A stretch of 35,090 nt of DNA from Calditrichia bacterium (lineage in GTDB: Bacteria; Calditrichota; Calditrichia; Calditrichales; J004), in assembly GCA_027006055.1 (NCBI GenBank), contig JALTKX010000264.1:1-35090 (forward strand), in the 5' to 3' direction. Below, piece after piece: positions 1 to 29,855 of the stretch. A program made the position numbers and the translations under genes. Below the pieces are notes generated by a model. The model was not told the origin of the DNA and searched no databases. It saw nothing but the letters and a program-made list of their open reading frames with translations. The number at the start of each line of letters is the position of its first letter. Position 1 is the first letter of the stretch.

Positions 1-165
1 ATAAATGAATATCGTCATACACCCGGTATGCCTGTGTGGCAACCCCGTTTTCACGATCATATTATTCGCAATGAAAATGAATTGAACCGGATTCGCCAAT
101 ATATTTTACACAATCCCGCCAAATGGCAGGCAGACAAATTTAATTCCGTGAAAAACACCTTATGA
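1..165 (+). CDS. REP-associated tyrosine transposase (Y1_Tnp/IS200-like), C-terminal fragment
   Basis: The open frame runs in from the left edge and stops at 163–165. The visible 54 residues include R-H-T-P-G-M-P-V-W-Q, then R-F-H-D-H-I-I-R and, near the end, Y-I-L-H-N-P-A-K-W. The pattern of an aromatic-rich 'WQ..F.DH.IR' block followed by 'I..Y...NP..W' is characteristic of the C-terminal half of REP-associated Y1 transposases (RAYTs), single-strand nucleases that mobilise or process REP hairpins. The catalytic HUH motif would lie to the left, outside the window, so activity cannot be judged. A small hairpin with TAAAG/CTTTA arms lies about 140 bp downstream. Family assignment is from recalled motif patterns. 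Confidence 0.75.
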   Translation: MNEYRHTPGMPVWQPRFHDHIIRNENELNRIRQYILHNPAKWQADKFNSVKNTL

Positions 166-305: not shown

Positions 306-320
306 TAAAGGGCGGCTTTA
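306..320. repeat. Short perfect hairpin (REP-like candidate)
   Basis: TAAAG at 306–310 and CTTTA at 316–320 are inverted repeats around a GGCGG loop. The hairpin overlaps the stop codon of the leftward sensor gene and lies close to the transposase fragment. It could be a REP-like target or a weak structure at the mRNA 3' end. No U tract follows on either strand, so it is not a convincing terminator. Confidence 0.3.
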
Positions 321-2060
321 GTCTTTTTCGGAGAGCGGTTTCCCCACCAGTTTTATCACCAGATTTTTCAAGTCCGGCAGCGGAAAGGGCTTGGAAAGGA
401 AAGCGTCGGCCATGCGTACCGTATCTTCCAGTTCCTCTTCCACCTCATAGCCGGTCATAAAAACAAAGCTGCCCTTATAGCCGCTTTCCTTAATCTTTTT
501 AAAAAGCTCGGTACCCGGCATCTCCGGCATATCCACATCGGAGATGATCAGCGAGTAGCTTTGATTGCCGATAAAATCCAGCGCCTGGGGACCGCTGGAG
601 GCGCCGTCGCACTCGTATCCGGAAAGATGCAGTACCTCTATCAGCGAGTCGAGCAATTCGGGTTCGTCATCAATAATAAGGATGCGTTGCTGTTTGCTTT
701 TTTCCAGCGCTTCTTCCGAAGAGGCGCGGATATTGATGATTTTGGTGGAGAGGTAATCCTGCTGACGCAGGGCGGTGATGCTTTTAAGGTTATCCACCAG
801 TTCCACGATGCGCTGAATGCTGCGCTGCGCTTTTACAAAGTACTCTGAATCGGCTACCTGCTGTTCCAAAATAGACATGCTGATGGTCAGCACCTGCAGC
901 GGTTGAGAAAATTCGTGGGCAATGCCCCCGGCCAGTTCCTGCACGCTCTTCAGCGTTTCCGCTTTTTGCCGCGCCTTTTCTTCCTTGCGTTTCTGGATGT
1001 CTTCTATACGGATGGAAACAAAAAATTTTATATCGCCCTTTTTGTCCCTCACAGGGGAAATGACCTGTTTCTCCCAATACAGACGACCATCCTTCATTTT
1101 ATTGCAAATCTGTCCCCGCCAGGTTTCTCCCGAGGTTATCGTATCCCACATCTCCTTATAAAACTGGGGCTTATGGGCATTGGACTTCAGGATGCGCGGG
1201 GTTTTGCCCAAAACATCCTCTTCCTTGTGGCCGGTACATTTGGAAAACTGCTCATTGATATAAATGATCGTGCCGTACTGGTCGGTTATCAGTATGGGCA
1301 GGGGACTCAGATGGATAACATGGCGGAAGGTCAGCAGCTCATCCTCCAGACGGCGCAGCTCGCGGGTATCGCGCAGGGTCAGCGTAATGCACAGCTCGTC
1401 TTCCCAGATCAGTTCATTGGTTACGATCTCCACGGTGCGGTTTTTACCGGTTAACGCCCGCAGGTCAAATTCCAGAATCTCCCCCGCCTGCACATCCAGG
1501 GGAAAGCGCTGACCGACGAATTTCTGCGGAATGCCAAACAACTCCTGACAGGCGGGGTTGATATAGCGTATCAAACCGTCGCGGTTGAGCACGATGGTCG
1601 CCTCGGTTTTGGAACGGAACACGCCGATAAAACGCTTTTCGCTTTCATGGAACTTGCGCTTCAGATAGCCCGCCTGTATGCGCAAACGATAATCCGCCTC
1701 GATTTTGGGCAGTAAAAGGGTCAGTTCAAAGGCATTCAGGCTTTTTTTATGCAGCCAATAAGGCGGCCGGAGTTCCGTCATGCGCGAGGCGTTGCCGTCG
1801 TCATAAAGCAATATATAGGGCAGTTCCAAAAGCTTAATTTCCCGGAAACGCTCGCCGATACCCGCATCATCCAAATCGCCCAGGTCCAACAAATACACGG
1901 GGATGGATTTGCTATCGGCAGGCCGGCTGACTTTGCTCTTCGGAGATACAATCCGGCCCGAAACGCTAAAGTGCTCAATTTGGGAGCATATATCGATAAA
2001 TTTTATAAAGGCCGACTCCCGTGAGGTCAGATAGGCCAGATCAAATTGAATTTCACTCAT
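318..2060 (-). CDS. Multi-PAS hybrid sensor protein with DHp helix and receiver but no ATPase domain
   Basis: 580 aa and soluble, with no membrane segment. Domains in order: an N-terminal receiver-like region (about 1–125, with Y-L-L-D-L and L-H-K-K where the phospho-acceptor and lysine strands would be); PAS 1 (about 140–245); PAS 2 (about 250–370, with the common 'GKTPRILKS…YKEMW' core); a HisKA-type dimerisation helix with A-G-G-I-A-H-E-F around His382; and a C-terminal REC domain with Asp508 in I-S-D-V-D-M-P-E-M-P-G and a conserved S-K-P. Only about 60 residues separate the His helix from REC. No N, G1, F or G2 boxes of a HATPase are present, so the protein cannot autophosphorylate as it stands. 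It probably receives phosphate from, or is sensed by, another kinase such as the complete one at 25527–27515; that partner is inference. It is transcribed away from the aldolase gene. Confidence 0.85.
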   Translation of the reverse strand: MSEIQFDLAYLTSRESAFIKFIDICSQIEHFSVSGRIVSPKSKVSRPADSKSIPVYLLDLGDLDDAGIGERFREIKLLELPYILLYDDGNASRMTELRPPYWLHKKSLNAFELTLLLPKIEADYRLRIQAGYLKRKFHESEKRFIGVFRSKTEATIVLNRDGLIRYINPACQELFGIPQKFVGQRFPLDVQAGEILEFDLRALTGKNRTVEIVTNELIWEDELCITLTLRDTRELRRLEDELLTFRHVIHLSPLPILITDQYGTIIYINEQFSKCTGHKEEDVLGKTPRILKSNAHKPQFYKEMWDTITSGETWRGQICNKMKDGRLYWEKQVISPVRDKKGDIKFFVSIRIEDIQKRKEEKARQKAETLKSVQELAGGIAHEFSQPLQVLTISMSILEQQVADSEYFVKAQRSIQRIVELVDNLKSITALRQQDYLSTKIINIRASSEEALEKSKQQRILIIDDEPELLDSLIEVLHLSGYECDGASSGPQALDFIGNQSYSLIISDVDMPEMPGTELFKKIKESGYKGSFVFMTGYEVEEELEDTVRMADAFLSKPFPLPDLKNLVIKLVGKPLSEKD

Positions 2061-2350
2061 TACATTTCTTTGTTAATCAAGATTTAGGTATTCGGCGTTA
2101 CAGACCAAAGTTTACCCATTAAGAGCAAAAAAACCGGCCTGTTAATGTAGATTTTGCTTCCATTGACGAAGAATAATGCCATGCAAAAAGTAACAATCAT
2201 ACGGGTATAAAGACTCAGGCCATTCCACCCGGAACCTGATGCGCATATAAAACAAAAACTTTCCCGGGGAATAAAACATCTTTTTCGTTTTATGGCGCTA
2301 TTGTTTAAATTCAACCATTCATTCAACCGATGCTGATTAAGGAGGCATAA

Positions 2351-3409
2351 ATGAGTTCACTAAAAAAAATCGAGGAACTTCTCGGCGCGGAAGCCGGGAA
2401 CTTACTTAACCACACATGCAATACCATCCCCCGGGAGCAGCTCCATCTGCCCGGCCCGGATTTCGTGGATCGCGTTTTTGCCGATTCCGATCGCAGCCCG
2501 CAGGTGCTGCGCAGCCTGCAAATGCTGTTTGAACACGGTCGTCTGGGGAACAGCGGCTACCTTTCCATCCTGCCGGTGGATCAGGGCATCGAACATACCG
2601 CCGGGGCATCCTTTGCCCCCAACCCGGCTTACTTCGACCCGGAGAATATCGTAAAGCTGGCCATCGAGGGCGGCTGTAACGGCGTGGCTTCCACCCTGGG
2701 CGTGCTGGGCGCCGTCAGCCGTAAATATGCGCACAAAATTCCCTTCATCGTCAAAATCAATCATAACGAGCTGCTCACCTATCCCAATAAATACGATCAG
2801 ATCATGTTCAGCAGCGTGCAACAGGCCTGGGACATGGGCGCCGTGGCCGTGGGCGCCACCATCTACTTCGGCTCGCCCGAATCCAACAGGCAAATTATTG
2901 AAGTGAGCGAGGCCTTTGAACTGGCCCATGACCTGGGCATGGCCACCATCCTGTGGTGCTACCTGCGTAATCCCGCCTTTAAAAAAGATGGCGTGGACTA
3001 TCACGTGGCCGCCGACCTGACCGGCCAGGCCAACCATCTGGGCGTAACCATCAAGGCCGATATCGTCAAGCAAAAACAACCGGAAAACAACGGCGGCTTT
3101 AAGGCCATCAACTTTGCCAAGACCCATGACAAGGTCTACTCGCAACTCTCTTCCGACCATCCGATTGATCTTACCCGTTATCAGGTGGCCAATTCCTACA
3201 TGGGCCGCGCCGGTCTGATCAACTCCGGCGGCGCCTCCGGCGAGAATGACCTGGCCCAGGCCGTGAAAACCGCGATCATCAATAAACGGGCCGGGGGCAT
3301 GGGACTGATCAGCGGCCGCAAGGCTTTCCAAAAACCGATGGATCAGGGCGTTGAGCTGCTTAATGCCATTCAGGACATTTACCTGGATAAGGATGTTACC
3401 ATCGCCTAA
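2351..3409 (+). CDS. fbaB: Fructose-bisphosphate aldolase class I (FbaB/DhnA family)
   Basis: 352 aa, the normal length for this family. It cleaves fructose 1,6-bisphosphate to DHAP and glyceraldehyde 3-phosphate (or the reverse) through a lysine Schiff base, in cytosolic glycolysis/gluconeogenesis. The sequence follows Escherichia coli FbaB closely along its whole length as I recall it: [13 protein letters not shown], the [13 protein letters not shown] strand, [18 protein letters not shown], and the C-terminal [12 protein letters not shown] and [12 protein letters not shown]. Lys240 in A-D-I-V-K-Q-K aligns with the E. coli Schiff-base lysine. The start has an excellent AGGAGG ribosome-binding site (gattAAGGAGGcataaATG). 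It is monocistronic, with a strong terminator directly after it. Confidence 0.95.
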
Positions 3410-25526: not shown

Positions 25527-27515
25527 ATGTCGGATATTATTTTACACGAAACCATTAAGGGCATATCCTCGGCGGATGATCAACTGAATATTTTTGCCCA
25601 GGCCATCCACCAAAACCCGGACGTGGTTGTCATCACCGACCGCAACGCCACCATAGTATACAGCAATCCCCGTTTCACCGAACTGACCGGTTACAGCGCC
25701 GAAGAGGCCCTGGGTAAAAATCCAAGAATATTACAATCGGGCGACACAAAACCGGAAGTTTATAAGGAAATGTGGCAAGTCATTCTGCAAGGACGGATAT
25801 GGCACGGGGAGTTTAAAAACCGGCGGAAGGACGGCAGCACCTTTTGGGAAGAAGCCTCGATCGGTCCTATTTTTAACGAGGATGGCGCAATAACACATTT
25901 TGTGGCAATAAAACATGATATCACCCGTCGCCGGGAGATGCAAAACGTTCTTCAAAAAACCGTCACCCAGTTCCGTACCCTTGCCGCCTCCACCCATGAT
26001 GCCATCATCGTTATCGATGAACATTGCTCGGTTCATTTATGGAATAACGGCGCCAGCAGGTACTTCGGCTATCTGGACAGAGAGGTTATCGGGAAATCAT
26101 TAAAGGATATTCTGAAGGTACGGGAATCCCAATTGGATAATTTCCGTATGTGGATAAAAAGCTCCGAGAAGATACAACGACAGATAGAAACGGAAATTCA
26201 ACACAAGCATGGTCACTGGATACCGGTGGAAGTGTCTTTTTCCAATATGCAAATTGAAACGGAAAACTTTGCCGTGCTCATTATAAGGAACATCGAAGAG
26301 CGTAAAAAGAACGAACAAAAATTAAAACAACTTAATTATCAGAATGAGCAGCTGATCAAAAGCCTGGCCTCGGTACTGATTGTTACCGATTCCGATGAAA
26401 AGGTTATCCGCTGGAACACCGTGGCCGAAAGCACCTTCGGCATTCCCTCCGGGGATGTTATCGGCAAACCCTTTACCAACACGGGTATACAATGGAACTG
26501 GGAAAAGGTGTTCGAGGCCATCGGCAGTTGCCGGGTTGAAAAGAGCATTCAACATTTAGCGGATTTAAATTACACGGGAAACAACGGAAAAACGGGATTC
26601 CTAAACCTCAGTTTTTCTCCCTATCCCATAGACAACTCACAATATCCCGGTTTCATTATACTGGGTCAGGATATCACCGACCGGAAAATTATGGAAAGCC
26701 AGTTGGTACAAAACCAGAAACTGGAATCCATCGGCCAGTTGGCAGCCGGTATTGCCCACGAAATCAACTCCCCCACGCAGTTTGTTACCGACAATGTTTA
26801 TTTTCTCAATGAGACCTTTAAGGATATGAAGCCCGTTTTTGATCTTCTTTTCGACATTATCGGAAACAGGGAAAGCCGTATGGAGGATATCCGGGAGCGG
26901 CTGACGGAAATCGTTGAGGATATTGACCTGAGCTATCTGCTGGAGGAAGTACCTCAGGCTTTTAAACAGACCCTGGAAGGGCTGGAGCGGGTCAGCTCCA
27001 TTGTTAAGGCCATGAAACAGTTTTCACACCCCGGAACAAAGGAGAAGCAGCTCTATAGTGTTAACGAGGCCATACGCACAACGGCCATGGTCTCGAAGAA
27101 TGAGTGGAAATATGTGGCCGAGCTGAGTCTGGAACTGGAAGAACATTTACCGGCGGTCAACCTGCTGGTGGATGAGTTCAATCAGGTTATTCTTAATATG
27201 ATCGTCAACGCGGCACACGCCATCGCCGAAAGGCAGGACGAAAACACGACGGAAAAAGGAAAGATCACCATCTCCACCAAAGATGATGGCCGCCATGTGC
27301 GTATCGATGTGCGGGATACGGGTAAAGGAATTCCCGGGGAGATCATCAACCGCGTGTTCGATCCGTTTTTCACCACCAAGGAGATAGGCAAGGGGACGGG
27401 ACAGGGGCTGGCCATTTCCCACGATATTATTGTAAACAAGCATCAGGGTTTTATCGAGGTTCAATCCACCCCCGGCGAGGGAACGATGTTTACCATCCGC
27501 TTACCAAAAGGATAA
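25527..27515 (+). CDS. Soluble sensor histidine kinase with three PAS domains
   Basis: 662 aa, no membrane helices. PAS 1 (about 20–140, ending F-V-A-I-K-H-D-I-T), PAS 2 (about 145–260) and PAS 3 (about 275–390, ending I-L-G-Q-D-I-T-D-R-K) precede a DHp domain with L-A-A-G-I-A-H-E-I-N-S-P (phospho-acceptor His411) and a complete HATPase: N box N-Q-V-I-L-N-M-I-V-N-A-A-H-A-I, G1 D-T-G-K-G-I-P, F box F-D-P-F-F-T-T-K and G2 G-K-G-T-G-Q-G-L-A-I. It is a cytosolic ligand, redox or energy sensor; no cofactor-specific residues can be named. Its stop lies 11 bp before the REC-HDOD gene, which is presumably its partner. Confidence 0.95.
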   Translation: MSDIILHETIKGISSADDQLNIFAQAIHQNPDVVVITDRNATIVYSNPRFTELTGYSAEEALGKNPRILQSGDTKPEVYKEMWQVILQGRIWHGEFKNRRKDGSTFWEEASIGPIFNEDGAITHFVAIKHDITRRREMQNVLQKTVTQFRTLAASTHDAIIVIDEHCSVHLWNNGASRYFGYLDREVIGKSLKDILKVRESQLDNFRMWIKSSEKIQRQIETEIQHKHGHWIPVEVSFSNMQIETENFAVLIIRNIEERKKNEQKLKQLNYQNEQLIKSLASVLIVTDSDEKVIRWNTVAESTFGIPSGDVIGKPFTNTGIQWNWEKVFEAIGSCRVEKSIQHLADLNYTGNNGKTGFLNLSFSPYPIDNSQYPGFIILGQDITDRKIMESQLVQNQKLESIGQLAAGIAHEINSPTQFVTDNVYFLNETFKDMKPVFDLLFDIIGNRESRMEDIRERLTEIVEDIDLSYLLEEVPQAFKQTLEGLERVSSIVKAMKQFSHPGTKEKQLYSVNEAIRTTAMVSKNEWKYVAELSLELEEHLPAVNLLVDEFNQVILNMIVNAAHAIAERQDENTTEKGKITISTKDDGRHVRIDVRDTGKGIPGEIINRVFDPFFTTKEIGKGTGQGLAISHDIIVNKHQGFIEVQSTPGEGTMFTIRLPKG

Positions 27516-27526
27516 GGAACCGTTCA

Positions 27527-28720
27527 ATGCTGAGTGTATTATTTGTGGACGACGAGCCCAATATTCTGAGAGGCTATAAACGTATTTTTCATGCCAGGCG
27601 CAAAAGCTGGCAAATTCACCTGGCCGGTTCGGGCGCCGAGGCGCTGAAACTGCTGGAAGAGACCCATGTGGATGTCATCATAACCGATATGCGCATGCCG
27701 GGCATGGACGGGGCGCGGCTGCTTAATATCATCCGGCTCCGCTACCCGCATATCATTCGGATCATACTCTCGGGACAGTCCGACGAAGAAGAGATTATGA
27801 ATTCCGTGCTGGCTACCCACCGCTTTCTCTCCAAGCCCACGGATGCGCAAACCCTCCGGGAGGCCATAGAGCAATCGGTCTCTTTCCGTGAAAAAACCGG
27901 CAACGTTCAAATCCGCGGGGTCGTATCGCAAATAGACCACCTGCCCAGCCTGCCCGAACTTTATATGGAAATTGAAAACATTCTGCGACGGGAGGACTTT
28001 GAACTGAAAGAGGTCGCCTCTGTGATTGAGAAGGACATGGCCATGACCGCCTCCATCCTGAAGCTGGTCAATTCGGCCTTTTTCGGCATCCCCCGCAAGG
28101 TAAGCACCATGCAGGAAGCGGTTTCCTATTTGGGCGTGGTGTTGATCAAGTCGCTGGTGCTTAACCACAGTCTGTTCAGCACAGGCTTACAAGGCCTCCA
28201 CCCCGACTTTATCCGCCGCCTGTGGCGGCATAGCAATGAAACGGTTCGCCATGCCCTGTGCCTTGCCCGCGGCTGTTTCCGGGAGCAGGAGGTCGTTGAC
28301 GAAATTACTCTCGCGGCCTCGGTACATGATATCGGCATGCTGATTATCGCCAACAGTCTGCCCGAAGAGTTTGCCACAATACAACGCCAAAGCCTTGCCG
28401 GGAATGTTCCCGCCCATAGCGTGGAACAGGACGTACTGCAAACCACCCATGCCGCGATTGGCGCCTACCTGGCCCATCTGTGGTCCTTCCCGCCCGCGGT
28501 GGTGGAGTTGATATTACACCACCACGACAGCGCCATAAACTTTAAGCCGCTGTTTATATTGCACCTGGCCGATGTGGGCGCGCAGCAATCCCTAAACGAC
28601 AATTATGGGTTTCCCCAGGAGAGCCTGGATAAAAACAGCATGAGCCTTTTTAATAAAAGCGACCCTTCCCTTAATGCCACTTTTAAAGATTGTCTCAACA
28701 AAGGATGGAATGATGACTAA
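27527..28720 (+). CDS. Response regulator with HDOD output domain
   Basis: 397 aa. The N-terminal REC domain (1–120) has the acidic pair in F-V-D-D-E, phospho-acceptor Asp54 in I-I-T-D-M-R-M-P-G-M-D-G and the F-L-S-K-P lysine. It is followed by an HDOD domain (about 130–335) opening Q-I-D-H-L-P-S-L-P-E-L and containing I-E-K-D-M-A-M-T-A-S-I-L-K-L-V-N-S-A-F-F-G, S-T-M-Q-E-A-V-S-Y-L-G and V-H-D-I-G-M-L-I. HDOD domains are non-catalytic relatives of HD hydrolases that act as signalling scaffolds. The start follows AAGGA after the kinase stop. The last codons overlap the start of the next receiver gene. Confidence 0.95.
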   Translation: MLSVLFVDDEPNILRGYKRIFHARRKSWQIHLAGSGAEALKLLEETHVDVIITDMRMPGMDGARLLNIIRLRYPHIIRIILSGQSDEEEIMNSVLATHRFLSKPTDAQTLREAIEQSVSFREKTGNVQIRGVVSQIDHLPSLPELYMEIENILRREDFELKEVASVIEKDMAMTASILKLVNSAFFGIPRKVSTMQEAVSYLGVVLIKSLVLNHSLFSTGLQGLHPDFIRRLWRHSNETVRHALCLARGCFREQEVVDEITLAASVHDIGMLIIANSLPEEFATIQRQSLAGNVPAHSVEQDVLQTTHAAIGAYLAHLWSFPPAVVELILHHHDSAINFKPLFILHLADVGAQQSLNDNYGFPQESLDKNSMSLFNKSDPSLNATFKDCLNKGWNDD

Positions 28721-29855
28721 GAAGTACCCCGTTTTATTCGTGGACGATGAGCAGAATATCCTGATCTCCTACAAGAGGAACCTGCGCAAGTATTTTCAGG
28801 TGGAAACGGCGGGCAGCGGGCCCGAGGCCCTGGAACTGATGAAAAGCAAGGGGCCCTTTGCCGTTATCGTCAGCGATATGCAGATGCCCGTAATGGACGG
28901 CGCGCGTTTTTTGGAAAAGGCGCGGGCCATCGACAAGGACTCCGTGCGTATGATACTGACCGGTTTTGCCAATATTGAAAATGCCATCAGCGCGGTGAAT
29001 AACGGCTTTATTTTCCGTTTTTTAACCAAGCCCTGCCCGCCGGAGTCGCTGATTGCCGCCATAGAGGAGGGCATCCGTCAATATCAGTTGATCCATGCCG
29101 AGCGCGAACTTTTGGAAGATACCCTGCAAAACTCCATAGGGGTTTTGACGGCTATTCTGGGCATGGTGAATCCACAGGCCTTCGGCCGGGCCAACCGCAT
29201 TAAGCAGTATGTGCATCAAATTGCCGAAAGGCTGAAGCTAAAGGATATCTGGCAGTTGGACATGGCGGCCATGCTGTCGCAGATCGGCTTTGTCACCCTC
29301 CCCCCGCACATTCTGGATAAGATATACAATGGCGAGATTCTTACGGAAAAAGAGCAGATCATGCTGGAGGAACATCCGGGGATCGGCGGCTCCCTGATCG
29401 AAAAAATCCCGCGCATGGACATCATTGCCGCCATTATTCGCGATCAGAATAAAAAATTCAGTGAACACGAAGCGCCGGCCGCGCTTACGCCGCGTAAAAA
29501 GTTTATCTCCCTGGGGGCGCAGATATTAAAAGTGGTTCTGGCTTTCGACGGCTACATCTACCGCGGTATGAGCAAGGCCGCCGCCATCAGTATGCTGGAA
29601 CGGGATCAGAACTCCTATAACCGGCAGATTGTTTCTCTGCTGAGTGATTTACAAGTTCTGGAAAAAGAACGGATAAGAAAGTCTCTGCCCCTGGATAAGC
29701 TGGTTTCCGGCGTTATTACCGAGTTCCCCATTATCAGCGCCAAGGGTAAAATGCTGGTCAACAAGGATATCCAGCTTACGGAGCCGCTGATCCAGCGCCT
29801 GAAGGCCTATGACCGTTCCGTGGGCATCCGCCAGCCGATCAAGGTACTCATGTAG
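28710..29855 (+). CDS. Response regulator with degenerate HD/HD-GYP-like output domain
   Basis: 381 aa from the first ATG of the ATGATG pair preceded by AAAGGA at 28700–28705 (28713 is equally good). A longer reading starting at 28674 would lie inside the previous gene without a ribosome site. REC: F-V-D-D-E, phospho-acceptor Asp56 in I-V-S-D-M-Q-M-P-V-M-D-G, L-T-K-P. The rest follows an HD-GYP outline: F-G-R-A-N-R-I, then L-D-M-A-A-M-L-S-Q-I-G-F-V-T-L-P, then E-H-P-G-I-G-G-S-L-I. However, the catalytic 'HD' is S-Q, and the 'HHE..DGxGYP' block is replaced by I-I-R-D-Q-N-K-K-F. It is therefore unlikely to degrade cyclic di-GMP and may act by binding. The 8–11-bp overlap with the HDOD gene indicates coupling. 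Confidence 0.88.
   Translation: MMTKKYPVLFVDDEQNILISYKRNLRKYFQVETAGSGPEALELMKSKGPFAVIVSDMQMPVMDGARFLEKARAIDKDSVRMILTGFANIENAISAVNNGFIFRFLTKPCPPESLIAAIEEGIRQYQLIHAERELLEDTLQNSIGVLTAILGMVNPQAFGRANRIKQYVHQIAERLKLKDIWQLDMAAMLSQIGFVTLPPHILDKIYNGEILTEKEQIMLEEHPGIGGSLIEKIPRMDIIAAIIRDQNKKFSEHEAPAALTPRKKFISLGAQILKVVLAFDGYIYRGMSKAAAISMLERDQNSYNRQIVSLLSDLQVLEKERIRKSLPLDKLVSGVITEFPIISAKGKMLVNKDIQLTEPLIQRLKAYDRSVGIRQPIKVLM

Follow-up and report, generated by a model that had tools for sequence, protein, structure and literature searches.

A bacterial family of HisKA-type hairpins carrying a conserved tail in place of the ATPase domain, as candidate phosphotransfer modules

HisKA proteins that lack the HATPase domain are already known, and 1556 of 42417 HisKA proteins in SMART are of this kind (PMC3591291). 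A family of this sort was noted in Archaeoglobus (PMC1183210), and for the archaeal class of REC-HisKA proteins without HATPase PMC5847659 gives no member as experimentally studied and describes the partners as unknown. The 'HisKA, no HATPase' class is defined there by sensor domains, a HisKA domain with the conserved His and the absence of HATPase, and the protein described in this study shows all three (PMC5847659). Archaeal REC-PAS/GAF-HisKA regulators such as AF_1472 likewise combine sensor and receiver domains with a His-bearing HisKA and no ATPase domain (PMC5847659); the proteins analysed here are bacterial, from Calditrichota and Desulfobacterota, and are defined by a tail signature.

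Several better characterized systems share part of this design. The dimeric histidine phosphotransferases Spo0B and ChpT carry a DHp-type hairpin with a phosphorylated His that serves in transfer, and ChpT has no autokinase activity; ChpT, however, retains at its C terminus an ATPase-like domain whose fold is altered, in contrast to the short tail and the fused receivers or PAS domains found here (PMC3433190). PhyT/PhyP are kinase-like phosphotransferases for which the authors suspect decay of the catalytic domain, but the DHp is of the HRxxN type and the degenerate ATPase domain is still present (PMC5898713). In the split kinases CheA3/CheA4 the acceptor His likewise sits in a protein that lacks an ATPase domain, but CheA3 is of the P1 type and has a dedicated ATP-binding partner (PMC3591291), and no gene for an ATPase-only partner turned up next to any of the family members inspected in this study. 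RetS, a hybrid sensor without autophosphorylation, acts on the phosphate of another protein, yet keeps a degenerate ATPase domain and the HExxT motif (PMC5992135). Our literature search, covering mostly titles and the openings of abstracts and only little of the subscription journals, returned no recognised description of a bacterial tail-bearing family.

Domain organization of the window gene

The DNA analysed (hereafter the window) is a 35,090-nucleotide stretch of a Calditrichia bacterium (assembly GCA_027006055.1, contig JALTKX010000264.1). The gene of interest starts with ATG on the minus strand and encodes a product of 580 amino acids, with the following features.

318-2060, minus strand: whole gene, receiver-like domain - PAS - PAS - DHp - conserved tail - receiver (open reading frame, Pfam, AlphaFold)
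1686-2060, minus strand: N-terminal receiver-like domain, residues 1-125, acceptor site not conserved (AlphaFold secondary structure, orthologue alignment)
1371-1607, minus strand: PAS domain 1, about residues 152-230 (second Pfam PAS stretch and AlphaFold strands)
1005-1328, minus strand: PAS domain 2, residues 245-352 (Pfam)
780-998, minus strand: DHp helical hairpin, residues 355-427, with H-box AHEFSQPLQ (Pfam HisKA, AlphaFold helices, profile-profile comparison)
915-917, minus strand: phospho-acceptor His382, invariant in the family alignment (84/84)
711-776, minus strand: conserved tail, residues 429-450, where the ATPase domain would be, with near-invariant Tyr436 and Ile441 (family alignment)
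345-686, minus strand: C-terminal receiver, residues 459-572, with intact D464, D465, D508, T536 and K557 (Pfam, receiver residue check)
537-539, minus strand: phospho-acceptor Asp508 (residue check)

The sequence-only reading of this gene, a DHp helix with His382 and a C-terminal receiver with Asp508 but no kinase domain, was borne out by Pfam and AlphaFold, and the numbering of both residues is correct. Pfam identified the receiver at residues 460-567 (E 1.3e-20), two PAS stretches of which the best spans 245-348, and HisKA at 374-428, while neither HATPase nor Hpt (PF01627) gave a match at E<=1. In the AlphaFold model two helices cover residues 355-399 and 405-427 and the receiver begins at 459. 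The distance between hairpin and receiver is therefore 31 residues instead of the about 60 first estimated, leaving no room for an ATPase domain either way, and the protein lacks the HATPase_c after the DHp that marks a hybrid histidine kinase. The tail within this gap is modelled with pLDDT below 50 and has no confident structure in the monomer.

The HisKA score of the window protein (25.5 bits) falls just below the PF00512 cut-off of 26.9, but relatives in the same family exceed it, including L062 (30.2), L110 (34.2) and a protein of Desulforapulum autotrophicum HRM2 (39.1). When 83 module segments were aligned profile to profile (hhalign) with 24 ordinary kinases, E was 8e-21, and a search of solved structures with the family profile yielded 16 sequences at E<=0.1, with few exceptions named sensor kinases. 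CpxA chains were on top in a Foldseek search with the module model, albeit with a best E of only 1.2e-2. We regard the predicted assignment as a DHp of HisKA type as firm at the level of the family.

The N-terminal domain had been proposed to be a degenerate receiver. The AlphaFold model shows the strand-helix order of a receiver within residues 1-125, agreeing with this proposal, but Pfam detected no receiver there and the profile comparison with real receivers was not significant (probability 3%); in a full-model fold comparison (VIA-align), all 50 matches listed correspond to the C-terminal receiver. The position of the acceptor is occupied by D, D, E, H, S and H across the six orthologues, as aligned by eye, and this region has changed far more rapidly than the receiver at the C terminus, with 26 of 125 residues identical between the window protein and its relative L069 as against 74 of 114. 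A degenerate receiver is thus likely, though not proved, and since its acceptor is not conserved this domain is unlikely to be the entry point of phosphate in the window protein. A search of the window for RNA families gave none above the cut-off.

The alternative of a deletion derivative, which the sequence-only reading had left standing beside a true component supplied in trans, was examined by alignment with relatives. The absence of the ATPase domain proved to be conserved in itself: an orthologue of 580-595 amino acids without this domain is present in all six family genomes examined, and no orthologue with a HATPase between DHp and receiver was found in these six. Each genome contains 3-4 such genes, that is, two or three paralogues of like construction beside the orthologue. 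In the genome of the window, two more proteins share the DHp and the approximately 25 residues after it, one of 361 amino acids (REC-DHp-tail-REC) and one of 328 amino acids (REC-PAS-DHp-tail) that ends right there. Against the two closest orthologues, L081 and L080, to which this analysis is confined (NG86 dS being saturated in several comparisons), dN/dS of the DHp was 0.023/0.41 and 0.006/0.51, respectively, and for the 22 tail codons dN was zero with dS of 0.52 and 0.40. Such an excess of dS over dN through DHp and tail indicates purifying selection on the junction. A recent deletion or an assembly artefact might be suspected in a metagenome-assembled genome of 298 contigs and 86% completeness; however, an identical architecture in five other genomes of the family, the paralogues, 84 distinct proteins overall and the low dN across the junction leave this explanation with a negligible probability, and the orthologues rule out a recent deletion. 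The module, conserved without a kinase domain across proteins, looks like a working part of a relay and not like a broken gene.

The tail-bearing family

Contigs were scanned for the pattern HEF[SA]QPLQ, which occurred 66 times, and tblastn upheld 38 of these occurrences as relatives. In 37 of the 38 the chain either stops after the tail or continues into a receiver or some other region that is not an ATPase domain, and the remaining locus (L108) is cut by the end of its contig. The matches come mostly from Calditrichota metagenome-assembled genomes and then from Deltaproteobacteria/Thermodesulfobacteriota, including Desulfocarbo indianensis SCBM, together with one genome each from Gammaproteobacteria and Desulfovibrio, both metagenome-assembled. 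A family profile (A3) was then built from 11 segments, and at E<1e-12 with the tail covered it collected 84 distinct proteins from Calditrichota, Desulfobacterota and a few other groups; distinct means here neither identical nor contained in one another, so that near-identical orthologues and the rows of the profile itself are included and the 84 are not independent. Among the proteins excluded by the limit are two with the tail and without ATPase domain (L148 and L178) and, in addition, truncated copies of L036. By profile, 20 of 40 Calditrichota genomes were positive at E<=1e-12, and in the phylum of Desulfocarbo, centre included, 30 of 79 genomes were positive at E<=1e-11, some through ordinary kinases: the 29 loci of that phylum (L151-L179) consist of 25 with the tail and without ATPase domain, one tandem protein (L171), two ordinary kinases (L176 and L179) and one interrupted gene (L163).

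As judged by purpose-built profiles for the ATPase domain and the receiver, spot-checked with Pfam, 83 of the 84 proteins carry no ATPase domain, and all 84 are complete at the C terminus. The single exception, L171 (positions 1039-2499, plus strand, genome G109), has the order PAS - DHp-tail module - ordinary DHp - ATPase domain, and its ATPase domain belongs to the second, ordinary DHp, so that nature has here joined the module and a complete kinase in one chain. Among the hits weaker than the family threshold, nine of 12 between 1e-12 and 1e-8 have an ATPase domain (L050 and L150 covering the tail), two lack it and one is open-ended, while 22 of 25 hits above 1e-8 have it and three lack it or are open. 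The tail pattern is missing in 29 of these 31 weaker ATPase-bearing hits and loosely matched by L041 and L013. A first profile run on 150 loci gave the identical split.

Within the module, the DHp is marked by His (84/84), Glu at +1 (80/84), Gln at +4 (79/84) and Pro at +5 (84/84), and the tail by Tyr (81/84), Ile (82/84) and Asp or Asn (83/84) in the pattern Y-x4/5-I-[ILV]-[DN]-[IL]. The H-box is the most conserved part, nearly equalled by the Tyr and Ile of the tail. Alignment with ordinary kinases by hhalign stops at the tail Tyr, but in L050 and L150, two kinases with an ATPase domain, the alignment runs on across the tail, where they show a related I-[LV]-D-[IL] and no Tyr, and a hydrophobic-hydrophobic-[DN]-hydrophobic run occurs at the tail distance in 11 of the 31 ATPase-bearing weaker hits. 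The I-D-L part is therefore not unique to the family, and the Tyr-Ile spacing is the better mark. The tail might be a vestige of the ATPase domain's first strand, an origin that we lean against from the sequences at hand; that it could be a docking peptide for a partner receiver or kinase is a guess. Geobacter-type proteins may carry the same tail.

After the module the protein ends within 25 residues in 57 of 84 cases, 'end' being taken as at most 25 residues beyond the aligned module (at most 12 in 49/84), and is followed by a receiver in 24 and by another region in three. Twelve of the 84 have a receiver before as well as after the module, and two of these continue into GGDEF: L168 (598-2505, minus strand; REC-DHp-tail-REC-GGDEF) and L169 (574-2583, minus strand; REC-PAS-DHp-tail-REC-GGDEF), both without ATPase domain. 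In an earlier set of 59 proteins the full DD-D-T-K residue set was present in all 22 C-terminal receivers and in 19 of 27 N-terminal receiver hits, a count that leaves out N-terminal domains of the window type since these escape detection. Two loci, L175 (702-2468, minus strand) and L178 (1-2016, plus strand), have HDOD at the start and a weak DHp-tail member near the C terminus.

Gene neighbourhoods and the proposed donor

On its visible side the window gene is accompanied by genes for a DeoC-family aldolase, a CxxCxxCC protein and a dipeptidase, none of them a signalling gene, and on the other side the contig ends after 317 bases. An open frame at this edge (1-162, plus strand) has no Pfam match; it may resemble the end of a REP-associated transposase. 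Thirty-three family members have 1.4 kb or more of sequence on either side; by raw count, seven of them have a gene for a kinase or a receiver within 600 bp (on the same strand in six), and the other 26 have none. The gene sets found include a complete MASE3-PAS kinase, a 147-aa receiver and a REC-DHp-tail-REC protein in a row (G004 and G005), a complete kinase and a 146-aa receiver divergent from a REC-DHp-tail gene (G009), a complete kinase with REC-GGDEF-EAL and REC-DHp-tail (G027), and a hybrid kinase adjoining the family member (L065 and L119). In Desulforapulum autotrophicum HRM2, a cultured sulfate reducer, plasmid pHRM2a encodes a PAS-HisKA-HATPase-REC-Hpt protein (HRM2_RS25735) directly upstream of the 219-aa REC-DHp-tail protein (HRM2_RS25730), which is annotated as 'response regulator' (L190, NC_012109.1 23204-31455). 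The ATPase-bearing neighbours of eight loci (L062, L063, L064, L065, L077, L104, L119 and L190) all have a HisKA domain of their own by Pfam, and a dedicated ATPase-only partner was found beside none of the members examined.

A complete PAS kinase on the same contig with a very similar PAS core had been put forward as a candidate phosphate donor.

25527-27515, plus strand: complete PAS histidine kinase, outside the family without ATPase domain (Pfam, orthologue search)

The shared PAS core is nothing special: it recurs with 32-36% identity at three places on contig C16 of the same genome and also in other family members, although the match of the kinase (38% identity) is the strongest of these. 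The kinase gene is followed after 11 bases by a REC-HDOD gene (27527-28720) and then by a REC-HD_5 gene (28674-29855), and the whole (25527-29855, plus strand) is an apparent operon of a PAS kinase with REC-HDOD and REC-HD_5 regulators. A full-length orthologue of the kinase is present in only two of five related genomes (81% identity in G001, 97% in G003), whereas the gene without ATPase domain is found in all five; in G002 no orthologue was detected at E<=1e-60, and G004 and G005 show only matches of about 50% over the C-terminal 420 residues. In favour of the proposed donor, in G001 both genes lie on the same contig and the linkage of about 25 kb is kept. The genome of the window gives 61 HATPase matches by simple count, offering many other possible donors. 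The kinase, with receivers of its own downstream and such patchy co-inheritance, is weakened as a candidate, and judging from these comparisons it is unlikely to be the specific donor of the window protein.

Possible roles of the module

The best reading of the conserved absence is still the one proposed at the outset, a true component supplied in trans; the conservation in 6/6 genomes was observed, and the phosphotransfer itself is what we infer. The HisKA-type DHp hairpin would have turned into a free-standing phosphotransfer module consisting of two helices with the acceptor His and a short tail, without the ATPase domain. It would dimerise into a four-helix bundle as do other DHp domains, and would be incapable of phosphorylating itself. 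Its source of phosphate would be another protein, be it a complete histidine kinase or a receiver that carries phosphate, and the phosphoryl group would pass between His382 and Asp508, or a partner receiver, with the PAS domains setting the efficiency of transfer, making the protein a PAS-controlled relay station. In relatives that have a receiver on either side, the arrangement receiver - His - receiver suits an in-line phosphorelay, and in proteins of the order receiver - His the final transfer would go to a separate response regulator. This reading is favoured by the kinase and receiver gene sets beside members, the REC-DHp-tail-REC-GGDEF fusions and the intact C-terminal receivers, and Spo0B, ChpT and PhyT provide precedents (PMC3433190, PMC5898713). 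On the opposite side we count the 57 of 84 modules without a receiver after them and the signalling neighbours for only seven of 33 members, and the seven Hpt matches above the cut-off in the window's own genome, one of them in a 145-aa frame, indicate that a DHp relay is not strictly needed. Taken from sequence and predicted structure, a phosphotransfer station fed in trans is a proposition that we hold with belief and doubt in equal parts.

The main rival, which we consider rather improbable though worth serious attention, is that the ATPase-free DHp only strips phosphate from receivers, its own Asp508 or others, under PAS control. The phosphatase reaction does not strictly need an absolutely conserved His, and the conservation found here goes beyond that need. 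The phosphatase motif as used in PMC3591291 is HE/DxxN/T, but position +4 of the family is T or N in only four of 84 members, Gln being the rule. In favour of this activity, HK853 without its ATPase domain was reported to retain phosphatase activity in vitro at pH 8 (PMC7005713), RetS with its degenerate ATPase domain acts as a transmitter phosphatase (PMC5992135), and the same role was suggested for archaeal HisKA-only proteins (PMC5847659). Decidedly less likely is a modifier of kinases, in which the hairpin would form mixed dimers with the DHp of complete kinases and either block them or be phosphorylated by their ATPase domain. RetS acting on GacS is the precedent (PMC5992135), with split kinases as a further parallel for phosphorylation by a partner; the solved RetS-GacS DHp complex turns up weakly in the Foldseek search with the module model, at ranks 27-28 and E about 0.4, and the tandem protein L171 joins the module to an ordinary DHp with its ATPase domain; but all eight ATPase-bearing neighbours examined have their own HisKA, unlike splits of the CheA3/CheA4 type, and for 26 of the 33 members with enough flank the 600 bp around them are free of kinase and receiver genes. 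A scaffold in which the hairpin merely links PAS and receiver domains by dimerisation, with the His unused, would agree with the suggestion that response regulators of this sort likely dimerise and make protein contacts (PMC5847659), but such a scaffold would need neither the His nor the Pro at +5, both invariant in 84/84, nor an H-box as the most conserved part, and we hold it to be very unlikely.

That the DHp-plus-tail unit constitutes a distinct, undescribed class of histidine phosphotransfer domain, descended from a HisKA kinase that lost its whole ATPase domain, with a near-invariant tail motif, a distribution over at least two phyla and a place in line between receivers and outputs (as in REC-DHp-tail-REC-GGDEF), is a proposal that we make tentatively, at somewhat under even confidence; current annotation would then mislabel a layer of the phosphorelay as sensor kinases or plain response regulators. 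The tail signature, the near-strict split from ordinary kinases among the proteins examined and the two-gene case of HRM2 make the question raised in PMC5847659 directly testable. If the relay reading is true, a step of their pathways is overlooked wherever these proteins are annotated as kinases or plain response regulators.
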